Part shown: positions 1 through 23,105 of the stretch, piece by piece
Layout: each line of letters begins with the position of its first letter
Position numbering within the stretch: position 1 is the first letter of the stretch
Notes under the pieces: model-generated
Seen by the model: the letters and a program-made list of their open reading frames with translations, nothing else
The model's database searches: none
Told to the model about the DNA's origin: nothing
Virus record (IMG/VR): IMGVR_UViG_3300034791_000045
Coordinates: 1-27,600 of that record
Length of the DNA: 27,600 nucleotides
Source: a virus
Direction: 5' to 3' (one strand)
Translations under genes and position numbers: made by a program

Positions 1-577
1 CTACATTTAAAATTTTTACTTCTGTTTCTAATATAGATTCATTTAATGCTTTTATTGTTGCTGGGTCTTTATCTCCAAAGAAAGATTTCTCCCAAATCAA
101 TTGAGCGTTCTGGATTGCTAATTGTATCGCATAAAAAGTATTTTTAAATGGTGTTAATACAATTGTCATTATGCCACTCATTACTTTTCCAAGTGCATCA
201 AATTGCTCTGATGATTTGGTCAATGCTGAATAAATATCTGTAAAGGCGGTTACAACTTGGCTCACTACATTTGCAGAAGTTTCAAATACAACATTAAATA
301 AATCAACTGCTTTTTGATTTTGTTCAAACAATTCTTTTAATGTACCAAGCAATCCAATAATCAAACCAATACCAGCAGCCTTTATAGCAGTACCTATTCC
401 TTTAATTCCTTTACCAACTAAATTACTTGACTTCTCAACATCCTTTAAACCAGCAGCAGTATCTTTATTACCTTTTACAACTGATTTATTTAAGTCCTCA
501 ACACTCTTTGCAACGTTATCAATTCCCTTAAGTGCTTTGTCTGTTTTAGCTTCTAATTCAATAATTACTTTTTCCAT
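1..577 (-). CDS. tail tape-measure protein, N-terminal part (cut by window edge)
   Basis: First 192 codons of a protein that runs off the left edge. It starts with ATG at 577 (MEKVIIELEAKTDKALKGID). The N-terminal part is rich in Lys/Asp/Ala helical sequence with coiled-coil character, followed by a Gly/Ile/Leu-rich hydrophobic stretch (about residues 65-85, GTAIKAAGIGLIIGLLGTL) and amphipathic helices. This pattern and the place at the end of the tail operon are typical of tape-measure proteins, which set tail length and leave the tail during DNA ejection. The start overlaps the end of the preceding small gene by 13 bases. The family call is from general architecture and context; the diagnostic length cannot be seen here. 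Confidence 0.8.
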   Translation of the reverse strand, partial: MEKVIIELEAKTDKALKGIDNVAKSVEDLNKSVVKGNKDTAAGLKDVEKSSNLVGKGIKGIGTAIKAAGIGLIIGLLGTLKELFEQNQKAVDLFNVVFETSANVVSQVVTAFTDIYSALTKSSEQFDALGKVMSGIMTIVLTPFKNTFYAIQLAIQNAQLIWEKSFFGDKDPATIKALNESILETEVKILNV

Positions 578-4369: not shown

Positions 4370-4897
4370 TTATTTATTGTTTATACTGTTTTTCATTAAT
4401 GCCTCAACATCTAATTTGTATGCTTCTACTAAATCTTTATTCAATCCTTTAAATGCTTTCTCAAATGGTTTGGTAAAGAATAAACTTGGTGCAATTCCTT
4501 TCTGATAAATACTTCTACTAATTAAAAATGCAGTACTATCATAACTTAAAAACCTTCCGCTTTTCTTATCTCTAAATTGAAACCTTTTTCTTTTTACCCA
4601 TTTGTTAATGCCCTCACTTAAGCCACCTTTTCTTCCAGTACCACTTCCAAACTTAAAAGGACTGTTGGGTGCTTTTGCACTTGAACTTTTACCTCTTACA
4701 CCTTTGTCTTGAAAGACTCCGTACTCTTCCATTAGGAAACTTAATTCAAAACTATTTTTAGAAACCTTTACATCAGAGTCTAAACTTTTAGCTAATTTCC
4801 CAGAACTGTTTTTGTCAGAACCACGTAGATTTATTCTTGCTTTTGTAACTACATACTTTGCGAAATTCTTTAATTCTTTTTCTACATTGCTTAACAT
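4370..4897 (-). CDS. HK97 gp10-like tail completion protein, 175 aa
   Basis: Basic protein whose layout fits the HK97-gp10/minor tail family: an N-terminal helix (VEKELKNFAKYVVTKARINL), a central beta region with EYGVFQDKGVRG, then a Lys/Arg-rich part and a C-terminal helix after PSLFFTKPFEKAF. In this family the motif with Gly-Val-x-x-x-Gly and the final Pro-Phe-hx-x-A helix are usual. Such proteins join tail and head or finish the tail. The start overlaps the previous gene by 7 bases, as expected for a co-translated tail-completion pair. Confidence 0.7.
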   Translation of the reverse strand: MLSNVEKELKNFAKYVVTKARINLRGSDKNSSGKLAKSLDSDVKVSKNSFELSFLMEEYGVFQDKGVRGKSSSAKAPNSPFKFGSGTGRKGGLSEGINKWVKRKRFQFRDKKSGRFLSYDSTAFLISRSIYQKGIAPSLFFTKPFEKAFKGLNKDLVEAYKLDVEALMKNSINNK

Positions 4898-5346
4898 ATA
4901 CTTATATCATTTGGTATAATCACATCAAAAGACAATGCCCATCCAGCCATCTCATTTTCAAATCTATCATAGAAAGGCTCAAAACTTGGAGAGCCATCTA
5001 ATTGATATAAGTCTGTATGTAAAGTGCCACCTCTTAGTACTTGCACTAACTTATTTAGTACTGCTAATTGTGTATTTAAAATATCTTGCTCGTTGTTATT
5101 CCCTATGAATATATCTACTACTTCTTCTTTTGAAATGTTTACTACATCCATAGCTAAAACAGATAAGCTAAAACGTAATATGTTATCCTCGTTACCTACA
5201 TTATTAACTATAAGATGTGATAAAGGAAACATTGTCTGCTTCGATAAATCTATTCTTGTGATGTCTCCAGTTGTAACTGTGTTCACATTCACATCTGCTA
5301 ACAGTTGGTCTTTTATTACTTGGGTAACTTGATAAAATCCTTTCAT
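4891..5346 (-). CDS. putative tail terminator/neck protein, 151 aa
   Basis: Soluble mixed alpha/beta protein starting MKGFYQVTQVIKDQLLADVN, with a C-terminal half SFEPFYDRFENEMAGWALSF. An N-terminal helix followed by strands, and the place just before the gp10-like gene, match tail-terminator (lambda gpU-like or HK97 gp-like) proteins. The similarity is too weak for a firm family. The ATG follows the stop codon of the frameshifted chaperone reading frame directly (TAA then ATG, 5349-5344), which is one reason to believe that frame is translated. Confidence 0.55.
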   Translation of the reverse strand: MKGFYQVTQVIKDQLLADVNVNTVTTGDITRIDLSKQTMFPLSHLIVNNVGNEDNILRFSLSVLAMDVVNISKEEVVDIFIGNNNEQDILNTQLAVLNKLVQVLRGGTLHTDLYQLDGSPSFEPFYDRFENEMAGWALSFDVIIPNDISIC

Positions 5347-6083
5347 TTAAAACTTACTTTTTATTTGTTGTGCTTCTATCTCTGCTTTCTCTTTCATAAA
5401 GGATAGCATTGTGAAACATTGATGTACATTTAGTTTAGTGATATCTTCAAATTTTGTAATATCTCCGTTAGAGAGCCCATAAATTGATTGATACCAACCC
5501 CACTTTGCTCCGAAGTTAGCTGCTCTTGAATAGCCTCCATTTCCGTTTGATTGCTGGAAGAGTGAATCGTATGCTCCGATAACTCCATCCCTAAATGAAG
5601 AAAAAAAAACACTGAACCTATTGCAGAACCCAAAGGCATATCTTTCATTTTCTCAGGATTCTTTACATCGTACTCTTCAATGTTATATTTACCAACCTTA
5701 CTTGTTTTGATTGGTCTGTATAATACATTCATTGCAACGTGCATATTATCCCAGCTTGATACATTGTTGTCTAAATCTATATACTCTCCTAAAGACATTT
5801 CATCTAAGTCTGGAATGAATCCATATTCAATACCATTTAGTTTAAAACGTTCTGTATGTTTTGGTGTTTGGTTAAGTAGTTCAGTTATGATATCTACAAT
5901 AGCAGCTGCACTAGACATTTTTAGTTTGTAGCTATCTGACAAAGGAATCCCACAAAAGATTTCAATCATTTTAGCATCCAAGAAGTTTCCTTCTGGATTG
6001 TTTTCAGCTATCTTTAAATACTTTTGGTATTGTCCTAGTGTTACTTCGTTAAGTGATGTTGGTACATTTATTTCAATCTTCAT
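5347..6083 (-). CDS. predicted -1 frameshift product of the tail chaperone, 245 aa (gpGT-like)
   Basis: If the ribosome slips back one base on the T9 run, 161 zero-frame residues are joined to 84 residues read in the -1 frame, ending with TAA at 5349-5347. The -1 part contains ANFGAKWGWYQSIYGLSNGD, then KFEDITKLNV and a charged helix ending KEKAEIEAQQIKSKF. The W-x-W-Y-x-x-IY motif followed by a Lys/Glu-rich helix looks like a real conserved domain. The -1 frame is open from after a TGA at 5655-5653 to 5347 and has no ATG, GTG or TTG ahead of the conserved part, so it cannot easily be started independently. The next gene's ATG follows its stop immediately. A real indel in the T run or polymerase slippage would give the same picture. 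Confidence 0.65.
5430..6083 (-). CDS. tail assembly chaperone, zero-frame product, 217 aa (gpG-like)
   Basis: Starts MKIEINVPTSLNEVTLGQYQ. It has a central FIPDLDEMSLGEYIDL stretch and a segment ending in GSVFFFLHLGMELS, followed by a helical C-terminus (GINQFMGSLTEILQNLK). This order matches a flavobacterial phage protein found in the chaperone position of the tail operon. The zero frame reads through three Phe codons in a run of nine T (residues 159-161) and stops at 5430. In the -1 frame from the same T run an open frame continues to 5347 and encodes a second conserved-looking domain (separate entry). This resembles lambda gpG and gpGT: a tail chaperone and its frameshifted, longer form. 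Family assignment is by architecture and position. Confidence 0.75.
   Translation of the reverse strand: MKIEINVPTSLNEVTLGQYQKYLKIAENNPEGNFLDAKMIEIFCGIPLSDSYKLKMSSAAAIVDIITELLNQTPKHTERFKLNGIEYGFIPDLDEMSLGEYIDLDNNVSSWDNMHVAMNVLYRPIKTSKVGKYNIEEYDVKNPEKMKDMPLGSAIGSVFFFLHLGMELSEHTIHSSSNQTEMEAIQEQLTSEQSGVGINQFMGSLTEILQNLKISLN
5601..5609 (-). promoter_or_regulatory. T9 slippery site for -1 frameshifting
   Basis: On the minus strand there are nine consecutive T between GTG and CTT. In the zero frame it reads TTT TTT TTT CTT, so it contains the canonical heptamer T TTT TTT. A -1 slip gives an open frame of 84 codons, whereas the +1 frame meets TAG within three codons. No search for a downstream pseudoknot was possible by eye. 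Confidence 0.6.
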
Positions 6084-6103: not shown

Positions 6104-6256
6104 CTAATGTTTTATAAAAAAGTCCTTACAATTTTCATAAGCCTTTGTAAGTAAGAAGAATTCATTGTGTGTTATTGGTTTTTTAATCCTTACTTTTTTG
6201 TTTGTTCTATGATGTATATAGCATTCAACTATTGCTATCATTGTTTCATTATTCAT
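6104..6256 (-). CDS. hypothetical protein, 50 aa
   Basis: Starts MNNETMIAIVECYIHHRTNK and ends in TAG at 6104. Its ATG shares one base with the TAA of the large terminase gene (TAATG, 6258-6254), which supports coupled translation. It is basic with an amphipathic helix and has no recognisable domain. It lies between terminase and the tail chaperone. Confidence 0.65.
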   Translation of the reverse strand: MNNETMIAIVECYIHHRTNKKVRIKKPITHNEFFLLTKAYENCKDFFIKH

Positions 6257-7419
6257 TACCTTATATTATAGCTTCCCTTATTTGGATTCTTTAATTGTGA
6301 TGTAATTGCATAACGTGCTGCATCGATGCAATGGTTAAAAGCATCTATTGGTTTATTAATGGTGTTGCCCTCTCTATCTTTCATCCAAGTGTAAGACTGC
6401 AATTCCTTTATTAAGTTCTTACTTCTTTCTGTAATGTATATTTGATTTTGATTTATTAAGTTGATACCATACACAATTGAATCTTTACCTTTTGTACAAG
6501 GCAATATTTTATGTCCGTATGTTTTTAATTCTGCAATTGATTTTGGCTCTGCACTATCTGCATAAACTATTTCTCTTATATCGTGTTCTTTAAATAGATT
6601 TGATATATCACTATTTAATAGTTTCTTTTGGTATATTATTTCATCAAAGATATAAGCATTGTTATATTTGTATAATGCTATTAATGTGCTGGGGTCATTA
6701 CTATAACCAAAATCCATTCCATAACATAATAATCTTGCTTCAATTGGTAACTTAATACTTTTCCATTCTTTAATACATACGCCCTCTAAAGAACCTACTT
6801 GACCAAGTCCATATACTTTCCACCAGTTACTCCAATATTCAGATGCCTTTGCTCTTTCTCTTGCTGATTCTATATCGTCTACAATGGTTTGTGGTAACGC
6901 TTCGTTATCTAAATAAGTAAGTGTAATGAAATCTGCATCGGATTGATTAGCGACCTCCCTATGAGCCCAGAAGTTAGCAGTTGGATTAAAGTCAATCCAT
7001 ATATCTCCAGAAGTTCTAATTGCTAATTGATTGTAAGCCTCAAAAGGTACATTGTTTGCTTCGTTAACATACAATACATTTCTTCTTGCACCACGTAATT
7101 TATCTGGTTGTTCTACTGAAAAGAATTCAATATAAGAACCATTTGTAAATGTGTATTTTAAGGTGCTTCTATTCCATTGATTATCTCTAAATCTATTAGT
7201 TGCAATCATTATCTTTAAGAAGTCTTTAATTGCACCCCTACGTAAATGTGGAATTGATTCAGATACTACACTTGTTTCCGTTATAGGATTTCTAATACAT
7301 CTATCAATAAGAATAGGAAGTATTCCAAAAGTTTTACCAGCAGAGGTTCCTCCTTGTATTACTTTTTTACGCTTTGTAAGTGCGTGTAATTTTCTTATTG
7401 CAGTTGTAGTCTGAAACAT
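6256..7419 (-). CDS. terL: terminase large subunit
   Basis: DNA-packaging motor: an ATPase that drives DNA into the prohead and a nuclease that cuts the concatemer. Walker A is GGTSAGKT at residues 23-30. The Walker B segment is NVLYVNEAN with catalytic Glu120. The C-terminal RNase H-like nuclease has Asp236 in YGMDFGYSND, Asp288 in VYADSAEPKS and the final acidic pair in PIDAFNHCIDAARYA (Asp359/Asp366). At 387 residues it is short but usual for terminase_3-type proteins in Bacteroidota phages. Its ATG follows the stop of the terminase small subunit directly. Confidence 0.95.
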   Translation of the reverse strand: MFQTTTAIRKLHALTKRKKVIQGGTSAGKTFGILPILIDRCIRNPITETSVVSESIPHLRRGAIKDFLKIMIATNRFRDNQWNRSTLKYTFTNGSYIEFFSVEQPDKLRGARRNVLYVNEANNVPFEAYNQLAIRTSGDIWIDFNPTANFWAHREVANQSDADFITLTYLDNEALPQTIVDDIESARERAKASEYWSNWWKVYGLGQVGSLEGVCIKEWKSIKLPIEARLLCYGMDFGYSNDPSTLIALYKYNNAYIFDEIIYQKKLLNSDISNLFKEHDIREIVYADSAEPKSIAELKTYGHKILPCTKGKDSIVYGINLINQNQIYITERSKNLIKELQSYTWMKDREGNTINKPIDAFNHCIDAARYAITSQLKNPNKGSYNIR

Positions 7420-20638: not shown

Positions 20639-21865
20639 TTATATTCTTGTTAATGCTTGTAATTCTGTGTCTGTTAATGCTGTGTTGTAAACTCTTACAT
20701 CTTTTGTGTTTCCTTTAAATTCATTAGCTCCAGTACTACTTCCTGAAAAATCAACTCTACTCAATCCACTTAAAGTTGGTGCATTAGTTATCCCACTTCC
20801 AACTTCTGAACCATTTATAAAAAGTTTAGCTATACTGCCATTATAAACAACCGCTACTTTATTAAAGTTTTTTACATCAAAACTTGAAACTGTAAAAGCT
20901 ATTGTAGTATCGTTTATTGCAGCATAAATAGAATTATTATTGGTATAACCTATAAAGATTCTATTAGTATTAGTTCCACTTCCATTATTTAAACCTATTA
21001 ATCTATAAGTGTTCCCACTATTACTTAAAGCAGATATTTGAGCATACAAAACACCCTCTGTTGAATTTATTACTTGAGCATTAGCACTATTATTACAACT
21101 ATCTGCAACCCTCGTTACTGCACTTCCATATGTAGGAATATAAGATGTAGCGTAGCTTCCTTGTTCTAATTGACTGTATTGTATGTAAATACCGTTGTCA
21201 CTTGTTGGTGAGATTTGTCCGTTACTATCTGCTGGAAAAATTCTTACTAAAGTTGTTGCTTGTGTATATGTTAATGTACATCTATACCACCCATTTCCAA
21301 CGCTTTCTATTTTTGCGTTATCTAAATTAGAACCGTTTGTAGTGCCAACAACTCCATTTGCTAAATCAAAATAAGCATTAACACTTTCAACACCATCATA
21401 CGACCAAACATATACCCAATTTGTACTTTCTGCCTTTAAGTAAACGCTATAACTATATTGAGCAGATGATAATGATAACGACTGTTGAATATACCTTGAG
21501 CCAGTAGAATTCTTTTTTAACAACCAAGCATTATTTGAGCCATATATTCCGCTTTGACCACTTGTTAAACTTAAAGCACTTGCACCAATTACCCAAGTTG
21601 TATCAAATTGATTGGATTGTAATAAACTATTTGTCCTACTCGGCTCTAACAATAAAGCACCTTTAGCATCATCACTAAAATCAATTCTTGGTTCTCCACT
21701 ACCAACTGTTTCAATTAAACCAGCTTTATTTACAACCGTAGCACTTGATGCTCTTGTAAAATTGAACGCTAATGGCTTAAAGTTTCCATTTTCTGAATTG
21801 TAAGCTAACAAAGAATCTTCTTTTGTTGCCCAATTTCCGTTTCCTAAATTTAAAGTATTTGCCAT
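20639..21865 (-). CDS. carbohydrate-binding/LamG-like fibre protein 2, 408 aa
   Basis: Virion fibre or decoration protein. The N-terminal part has FNFTRASSATVVNKAGLIET and LLLEPSRTN, the start of a beta-jelly-roll module in many such phage proteins. The middle (about 100-240) is CBM_4_9-like, with YSYSVYLKAESTNWVYVWSY and GNGWYRCTLTYTQA, ending LEQGSYATSYIP. The C-terminal third is a concanavalin-type (LamG) domain, with FNKVAVVYNGSIAKLFINGS and a conserved final helix (YNTALTDTELQAL). It is paralogous to the next upstream gene. No catalytic residues are obvious, so binding to surface sugars is likely; contact with the host is inferred. Confidence 0.75.
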   Translation of the reverse strand: MANTLNLGNGNWATKEDSLLAYNSENGNFKPLAFNFTRASSATVVNKAGLIETVGSGEPRIDFSDDAKGALLLEPSRTNSLLQSNQFDTTWVIGASALSLTSGQSGIYGSNNAWLLKKNSTGSRYIQQSLSLSSAQYSYSVYLKAESTNWVYVWSYDGVESVNAYFDLANGVVGTTNGSNLDNAKIESVGNGWYRCTLTYTQATTLVRIFPADSNGQISPTSDNGIYIQYSQLEQGSYATSYIPTYGSAVTRVADSCNNSANAQVINSTEGVLYAQISALSNSGNTYRLIGLNNGSGTNTNRIFIGYTNNNSIYAAINDTTIAFTVSSFDVKNFNKVAVVYNGSIAKLFINGSEVGSGITNAPTLSGLSRVDFSGSSTGANEFKGNTKDVRVYNTALTDTELQALTRI

Positions 21866-21866
21866 A

Positions 21867-23105
21867 TTATTTTATGCTATAAGTTTGTCCGTTAGCTAAA
21901 TCTGTAAAAGATGTCCAAGAGGTTATTTTTTCTAAATCTGAATCGTTTAATGCTGAATCGAAGTATTGAATTTGTTTGGTTGAACCGTAGAAATCTAAAC
22001 CTCCATTACCATCCTCAAATCTTAATTGATTTAAAGTATTATTTGGAAACGTAATACCGCTTGAATCAGTAGCAACTTCGAAACCATTAAGCCATAAAGC
22101 AAAATCGTTTTCCTTGTATTTTAAAGCATATTTTGACATTTCGTCTTTGCCGATATAATTGCCACCTAATATTGCTTGATTTGAGCCATCATAAACAGTT
22201 GCAATTACGTTATTATTATTGTCAAAACCCATTATAACTCTATTATTAGACGTTCCGTCTGATAACGTAATTCTTTTATGTGTACCATCTAAAGAAATTG
22301 GTTTTATTTGATACATCAAAACCCCCTCTGAATCATTAAACGTAGAAGCATCTCCATCACCGTTAGCAGTTTCAGCTGAACGAGTTACTGCTGAACCGCT
22401 TGTTGGTATGTAAGAAGTTGGATAAGAACCTTGTTCTATTTGTGCACCCCATAAGTAAACACTTCCTGTACCTGTATTTGAGCCATCAGTATCACTTACA
22501 AAAATCTGTGCAAGTGAATTTGTGTTATTACCTACAACTGTACATCTGTACCACCCATTACCATAATCTTCAATTTTAGTGCTACTTACATTAATTGTAC
22601 TACCAGCAGAACCATTTTGAATATCAAAATAAGCATAAGAACTTGTTGAGCGTAATCTTATAAATTGAGCATCTACATATTTAGCAAACACACTAAAAGC
22701 GTAATCGCCACTACCACCTACGCCATCATACACATTACCACTTGCCGAAGTTAATTGTAATAAATCAGCAGTTTGCGAACCATCAGGCGATATAGCTTGA
22801 TTAGCTGTAACAGTTGAGTTACCTTTTGACCAAGCAGCATTACTAAAATCTTCCGAATACTGTATATTCTGCAATCTCGATGGCTCTAATAAATGACTTG
22901 GACAACCATTTACAACCCCATCAATTAAAGGATAGTTTAATCTTGAAACACCACTTGCAACTGTTTCAATTAGTCCATCTTTATTTATTCTTGTAGCTGC
23001 TGAACCTCTTGAAAAATTGAAATCCCCTACACCATCTGCTGGTAATACGGAATACAACTTGCTTCCTTGCGTTGCTGGTATGAGTGCTAATTTTGGTTTT
23101 GCCAT
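21867..23105 (-). CDS. carbohydrate-binding/LamG-like fibre protein 1, 412 aa
   Basis: Same three-part plan as its neighbour: FNFSRGSAATRINKDGLIET and HLLEPSR at the N-terminus, a CBM-like centre with GNGWYRCTVVGNNT and IEQGSYPTSYIPTSGSAVTR, then a LamG-like C-terminus (MSKYALKYKENDFALWLNGF, YFDSALNDSDLEKI). The GNGWYRCT and EQGSYxTSYIPT segments are nearly identical between the two proteins while the N-terminal 100 residues and the LamG part differ more. It may be one of two receptor-binding or decoration fibres. The ATG of the second gene lies one base after this stop. Confidence 0.75.
   Translation of the reverse strand: MAKPKLALIPATQGSKLYSVLPADGVGDFNFSRGSAATRINKDGLIETVASGVSRLNYPLIDGVVNGCPSHLLEPSRLQNIQYSEDFSNAAWSKGNSTVTANQAISPDGSQTADLLQLTSASGNVYDGVGGSGDYAFSVFAKYVDAQFIRLRSTSSYAYFDIQNGSAGSTINVSSTKIEDYGNGWYRCTVVGNNTNSLAQIFVSDTDGSNTGTGSVYLWGAQIEQGSYPTSYIPTSGSAVTRSAETANGDGDASTFNDSEGVLMYQIKPISLDGTHKRITLSDGTSNNRVIMGFDNNNNVIATVYDGSNQAILGGNYIGKDEMSKYALKYKENDFALWLNGFEVATDSSGITFPNNTLNQLRFEDGNGGLDFYGSTKQIQYFDSALNDSDLEKITSWTSFTDLANGQTYSIK

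Follow-up and report, generated by a model that had tools for sequence, protein, structure and literature searches.

Tail proteins made in two forms by a change of reading frame are a hallmark of long-tailed phages. In phage lambda, G and T are located before the tape measure gene. The lambda frame changes when the ribosome slips close to the end of G (Atkins 2016, PMC5009743), and frameshifting of 6% and 7% was reported for two phage chaperone genes (Antonov 2013). The frame-change cases in the parts of these two sources cited here are ribosomal. Selection against A or T runs is evident at a length of nine in many bacteria (Baranov 2005, PMC1088944). The same work cited Shigella mxiE as a precedent for non-templated insertion at a U run, and screened for conserved runs of 9A or 9T combined with overlapping ORFs. 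The phage gene family described here, with a run of at least nine T and overlapping ORFs, shows that combination.

The frameshift gene in the virus record

The window, i.e. the whole stretch of DNA that was analysed, is a 27.6-kb virus record (27,600 bases) of a marine bacterial virus. The zero-frame gene (6083–5430, minus strand; 217 codons) encodes a protein of 217 aa, as the preliminary description had proposed. Its product consists of an N-domain of about 160 aa and a C-terminal tail of its own ending ...SLTEILQNLKISLN, and the gene is homologous to gp40 of Nonlabens phage P12024L and to phrog_32199. The run of nine T lies where it had been placed, at 5609–5601 (minus strand), reads GTG TTT TTT TTT CTT and includes the in-frame heptamer T TTT TTT. 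Also as proposed, the −1 frame stays open between 5652 and 5347, and its extension P0002 (5604–5347, minus strand), which carries the FGAKWGWY domain, ends in the TAA at 5349–5347. Read from 5604 the extension has 85 codons, 84 of them after the slip, and the long product of 161 zero-frame codons plus 84 codons in the −1 frame has the predicted length of 245 aa. Two further claims held: the −1 frame has no ATG, GTG or TTG ahead of the second domain, up to FGAKWGWY, and the next gene starts directly 3′ of the −1 TAA, at 5346 (TAAATG). The zero-frame tail and the −1 domain overlap at 5600–5430 (minus strand), a dual-coded segment in which both are selected. A TAG in the +1 frame at 5593–5591 (minus strand), three codons past the slip, would stop products of a one-base deletion; a +1 stop three codons past the slip was present in 268 of 288 contexts from relatives.

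The upstream neighbour of the frameshift gene encodes the terminase large subunit (6256–7419, minus strand). On the 3′ side follow a gene for a 151-aa protein of the unknown family phrog_30964 (4891–5346, minus strand), whose ATG abuts the −1 frame TAA, and a homologue of P12024L gp43 (4370–4897, minus strand; phrog_29822). A phrog_30964-type gene is also found 3′ of the frameshift gene in P12024L (gp42), and gp43 itself matches the tail completion/Neck1 family phrog_5 weakly. Two large genes and the N-terminal part of a tape measure gene (2–577, minus strand), which runs off the record, complete the order. The tape measure gene was assigned through phrog_2337 (E 4.5e-5) and phrog_32985; gp50 of P12024L, also phrog_32985, matches the tape measure family phrog_9483 (E 5.6e-12). 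The frameshift gene is thus not directly upstream of the tape measure gene; the two are separated by four genes in the window and by a larger number in P12024L. Among the latter, the start of gp47 resembles a fibre connector, and the sole match of gp48 is to an unknown family.

Elsewhere in the window, adjacent genes at 20639–21865 and 21867–23105 (408 and 412 aa) have motifs in common by eye. The first matches the tail protein family phrog_5939, and the pair is possibly a duplicated tail fibre gene.

Predicted protein function

The AlphaFold model of the zero-frame product (pLDDT 82, pTM 0.76) has a mixed fold, and that of the C-domain (pLDDT 76) is all helices. A fold search of the PDB with the zero-frame model gave a best Z of 4.9, mostly for unrelated helical look-alikes of its C-terminal helices, and the C-domain gave a best Z of 2.5. 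The PDB sequence search returned nothing useful, and Pfam yielded no match and no chaperone. Matches in PHROGs were to unknown families, apart from weak matches of 6 of 99 members to phrog_166, 'tail protein'. BFVD fold matches were mostly to uncharacterised phage proteins; among the matches listed, one is named 'Tail assembly chaperone protein' and matches weakly (E 0.07, probability 0.94).

A tail-assembly chaperone role like that of gpG/gpGT is plausible and our best guess. In such a case the short form would probably be the abundant tail-assembly chaperone, to which the long form would add a second binding domain. That the recoded protein is instead some other two-form tail or connector protein is a real possibility, if not the reading that we prefer. 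It would fit the lack of any match to chaperone families and the location of the gene, which has terminase on one side and connector-type genes on the other and is several genes ahead of the tape measure gene. Against it stand the weak matches to phrog_166 and to the BFVD chaperone model, and the absence of any further recognisable chaperone-like gene from those searched ahead of the tape measure gene. The name 'tail chaperone' in the preliminary description is plausible, with two reservations: neither family nor fold searches gave a clear match, and several genes separate the frameshift gene from that for the tape measure. Because the gene differs from G/T in this position and no fold match is clear, we do not class it as a member of the gpG/gpGT group.

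Conservation of the frame offset and of the run length

A viral collection was searched with the C-domain, with distant members, with a zero-frame profile and with a P12024L-centred profile, using at most the best 80 matches per scan; the search patterns of the zero-frame profile were kept clear of the slip site. The resulting set contains at least 444 sequences, the window included, with the window copy L001 and loci L298 and L368–L371 left out. Both domains were found in 441 of the 444, and the remaining 3 reach the contig edge before the C-domain. The 441 sequences correspond to 359 distinct contexts, each at most 400 bases long, with near-identical viruses counted separately.

The C-domain was in the −1 frame relative to the N-domain in all 359 contexts. 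That every one of the 441 sequences with both domains has the same −1 relation exceeds chance. The T run was T9 in 229 contexts, T10 in 126 and T12 in 4 (280, 156 and 5 of the 441 sequences); runs of 7, 8 or 11, or of any length below nine, did not occur in the 359 contexts. An in-frame fusion of both domains was likewise absent from all 359. The alignment of relatives suggested in the preliminary description found that both frames are kept throughout and that the run always has 9, 10 or 12 T. Relatives encoding both domains in one frame with a shorter T run, which had been named there as the mark of a sequencing indel, did not occur among these contexts. T7 and T8 versions of the G-preceded context were also sought across the entire viral collection. 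This yielded 40 stretches, none of which adjoins either domain, in a test that recognised 97 of 97 known members.

The family spans sequences down to about 29% identity, found in the zero frame of the cultured Nonlabens phages P12024L and P12024S. P12024L has a T9 run at the same junction, and P12024S has the same T9 context. An identical layout was found on a contig of a Bacteroidetes metagenome-assembled genome (MAG). Among 395 genomes of the phylum of this MAG, the C-domain profile gave three matches and the zero-frame profile one, that MAG; the N-domain was absent from the two further C-domain matches. From the Nonlabens phages and the Bacteroidetes MAG we infer a flavobacterial host.

Two loci deviate from the usual layout. 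Locus L370 (genome G277), which is without an N-domain, has a 54-codon open stretch from 1485 that resembles the KWGWY domain (KWSWY). In locus L020, from 1615, the zero frame stops 7 codons past the slip while the −1 domain is intact, a case unique among the 80 closest sequences.

Both frames are under selection

The zero frame was open for at least 48 codons past the slip in 352 of 359 contexts; the two frames both code for protein, typically across some 57 codons. When selection on the −1 protein alone was assumed for 178 sequences, the zero frame stayed equally open in 1.8% of cases; with selection on the zero frame alone, the −1 frame stayed equally open in 0.7%. The last 25 zero-frame residues had a mean column identity of 0.755 (the 92 of 178 sequences with tails of 56–57 codons), compared with 0.48–0.51 in ten shuffles that preserve the −1 protein. 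Conservation of the −1 frame begins at the run itself, where residues F1, F4 and R5 are invariant or nearly so (alignment A4, 108 rows). We conclude that both frames are under selection and that this is a programmed two-product gene that is deeply conserved.

Run architecture and compensating changes

In what follows, position 0 is the first base of a zero-frame reference codon, and codons take the number of their own first base. The run extends from −5 to 3 in 219 contexts (e.g. ATG GTT TTT TTT TAC), from −8 to 1 in 93 (e.g. CTT TTT TTT TTC TAC) and from −6 to 3 in 31 (e.g. TTG TTT TTT TTT TAC). Its position slides such that one side compensates for the other and the length stays at nine or more, and the variation consists of point differences at fixed codons. 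All 262 contexts whose run is unable to begin at −8 have T as the third base of codon 0, whereas among the 97 in which it begins there this base is C, G or A in 93 and T in 4. Exchange of TTC and TTT at codon 0 before TA is silent in both frames, and in the other genes of these phages 81% of Phe codons are TTT. The 3′ side behaves similarly. All 222 contexts that need a T as the first base of codon +3 to reach nine have it, versus 126 of the 137 others (Fisher 2e-5, a test that ignores kinship), and in the two loci without T at −5, L375 and L292, codon +3 reads TTG or TTT.

On a tree of 178 representatives, the architecture of the run changed at least 24 times. Dependent evolution of the two sides was favoured over independent evolution with 2dlnL = 89, a value that is rough because the rates ran to their bounds. 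When independent evolution was simulated, the 37 draws retained for a comparable make-up each left 10 or more of the 178 tips with a run shorter than nine, compared with none in the data; plain independent simulations gave no run under nine in 7.6% of 2,000 draws. Of the independent pairs on supported branches, about 5 of 6 changed in the expected direction, none in the opposite direction and the rest were equal (median p 0.0625), and these sign tests are without significance because six pairs are too few. From these data we conclude that run length is under selection.

RNA polymerase or ribosome

As a background set we used 404 kb of other ORFs from 118 diverse loci, called mechanically at a minimum of 100 codons on the same strand. 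Runs of T8 or longer occurred twice versus 30.8 expected, with depletion in every phase, and runs of T9 or longer not at all versus 8.1 expected. T7 was seen 36 times in the heptamer phase (60.8 expected), compared with 11 (19.7) and 4 (9.7) times in the other phases, and in-frame U7 was thus depleted no more than out-of-phase T7. The five other sense-strand runs of T8 or longer in the window are all outside ORFs of at least 60 codons. Slippage during DNA replication might also account for the scarcity of long T runs. Runs of nine or more A were likewise depleted in the coding sequence of the 118 loci (5 seen, 35.7 expected).

No stimulatory signal was found downstream of the run. The fold z-score was −0.32 ± 0.16 (n = 45), within the −0.70 to +0.58 of flanking windows, and no consensus fold was detected in 90 diverse sequences or in 29 close relatives. 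An SD-like element was present in only 2 of 90 sequences. The window alone folds with −20.3 kcal/mol over 100 nt, a value without a shuffle control, and no fold in common with its relatives emerged. The search below the T run suggested in the preliminary description, which named a pseudoknot, thus showed no conserved structure.

The principal alternative to a polymerase-level event is an unstimulated, low-efficiency −1 ribosomal frameshift on U_UUU_UUU within the run, as in lambda gpG/gpGT, which we regard as possible though rather doubtful. In-phase T TTT TTN is present in all 359 contexts, and GT frameshifting of long-tailed phages is described as ribosomal (Atkins 2016, PMC5009743). The absence of stimulators would also fit low-level shifting of the kind found in some tailed phages (same source), and through the codon 0 compensation one or other of two sites retains a perfect U_UUU_UUU; because that heptamer is thus retained in one of two phases, this compensation alone is indecisive. 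However, six or seven T suffice for the ribosome, yet seven or eight were found neither in the 359 contexts nor next to the domains in the 40 stretches of the whole collection. The codon +3 of the two loci without T at −5, the absence of structure and of SD-like elements, and the finding that other genes show no special avoidance of in-frame U7 also argue against a ribosomal slip. Transcriptional slippage that adds one extra U is the explanation that we moderately favour, because runs under nine were never seen although seven T would serve the ribosome, because T8 and longer runs are avoided in all phases and in-frame U7 is not specially avoided, and because no structure or SD-like signal is conserved. 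The proposal of a slip on pure T at the junction of the two domains is thus strongly supported as programmed recoding, while for the ribosomal level implied at the outset the evidence tilts to transcription.

Under transcriptional slippage, RNA polymerase would be mostly faithful on T9, giving the short protein of 217 aa, and in a fraction of transcripts a slip would add one U. Ribosomes reading such transcripts normally would exit the run in the −1 frame and make the 245-aa protein, in which the N-domain of the short form would be joined to the different, helical KWGWY C-domain. One-base deletions would end immediately at the TAG. Run length, nine to ten and rarely twelve, would set the dose, such that one gene may give two proteins in a set ratio.

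Alternative origins of the second reading frame

Internal initiation or reinitiation could in principle produce the C-domain, as annotated for P12024L gp41 and adopted in the GenBank records of both P12024L and P12024S. We consider it highly improbable, since 170 of 221 sequences have no ATG, GTG or TTG in the −1 frame ahead of KWGWY and since −1 frame conservation begins with the run residues F1, F4 and R5. Homopolymers expand and contract, and phase variation of the DNA itself, through slippage at the run during replication, might bring the two frames together in some genomes. This, too, is very unlikely, as a run that would make the frames continuous was found in none of the 359 context consensuses and as the runs differ by point changes at fixed codons. 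Homopolymers are also error-prone, but a sequencing or assembly indel, or a broken gene, is exceedingly improbable and was rejected: 441 of 444 sequences on many contigs have the same offset and none is fused, both frames are selected, and the junction recurs in cultured P12024L and the T9 context in P12024S.

Possible distant relatives

At least five BFVD models, including A0A516L5A8, A0A6J7WDG4 and A0A6J5N0W0, match both domain models and are single proteins of 226–267 aa. They are shared between the C-domain matches, which are weak (E 0.016 to 0.94), and the 50 of 179 N-domain matches listed. Judged from these models, they may represent in-frame fusions in distant phages. In Flavobacterium phage 6H (L298; 10352–10047, minus strand) the N-domain has a fold relative (BFVD R9VW65, E 8e-4), a model tied to the 6H CDS by its length of 191 aa only. 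An unannotated gap of about 300 bases 3′ of this CDS contains a −1-frame ORF. A T6 is found close to the junction; if the −1 slip took place on this T6, it would run into a stop. The 6H locus is possibly another unannotated frame change.

Comparison with known systems

The closest cultured counterparts are the homologous genes of the Nonlabens phages (Inhavirus), gp40/gp41 of P12024L and gp38/gp39 of P12024S, which have T9 in the same context and the KWGWY domain. They differ in that the zero-frame tail of P12024L is about half as long, and in both phages the two parts were deposited as separate genes without a frameshift. P12024L gp41 (L082, 3528–3695), annotated from an ATG that overlaps the gp40 stop, is the end of the −1 extension. 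The frame change explains why two genes were annotated apart in these two cultured phages. Among the literature matches listed, which included few subscription papers, none dealt with a frame change in this family or with transcriptional slippage in a phage tail gene.

The family resembles Shigella mxiE in that a U run is involved and an insertion fuses two overlapping ORFs into a longer protein (PMC1088944), whereas mxiE encodes a regulator on a bacterial plasmid and not a phage structural gene. It is also like the transcriptional slippage of Thermus dnaX and of IS elements, in which a run of about nine A or T gives two products (PMC1088944); dnaX differs in having nine A, and its slippage shortens the product.

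As in lambda gpG/gpGT, the N-terminal part is common to both products, the longer form results from a −1 change that adds a C-terminal domain, and the gene is in the structural region. Unlike in lambda, the frame change occurs at a run of T9 or longer, a conserved zero-frame tail of about 57 codons overlaps the −1 domain, the gene follows that for terminase and no sequence relation was detected. Our overall reading, which we hold at even confidence, is that a large group of marine tailed phages, probably flavobacterial, would set the ratio of two tail-assembly proteins at RNA polymerase, by slippage on a run of T9 to T12 with alternative C-termini overlapping in two frames, where other siphophages use the ribosome. 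If this is true, the same end is reached at the level of transcription, run length serves as dose control, and the silent compensation across hundreds of natural variants is its record. The family is a ready test case for distinguishing transcriptional from ribosomal recoding.
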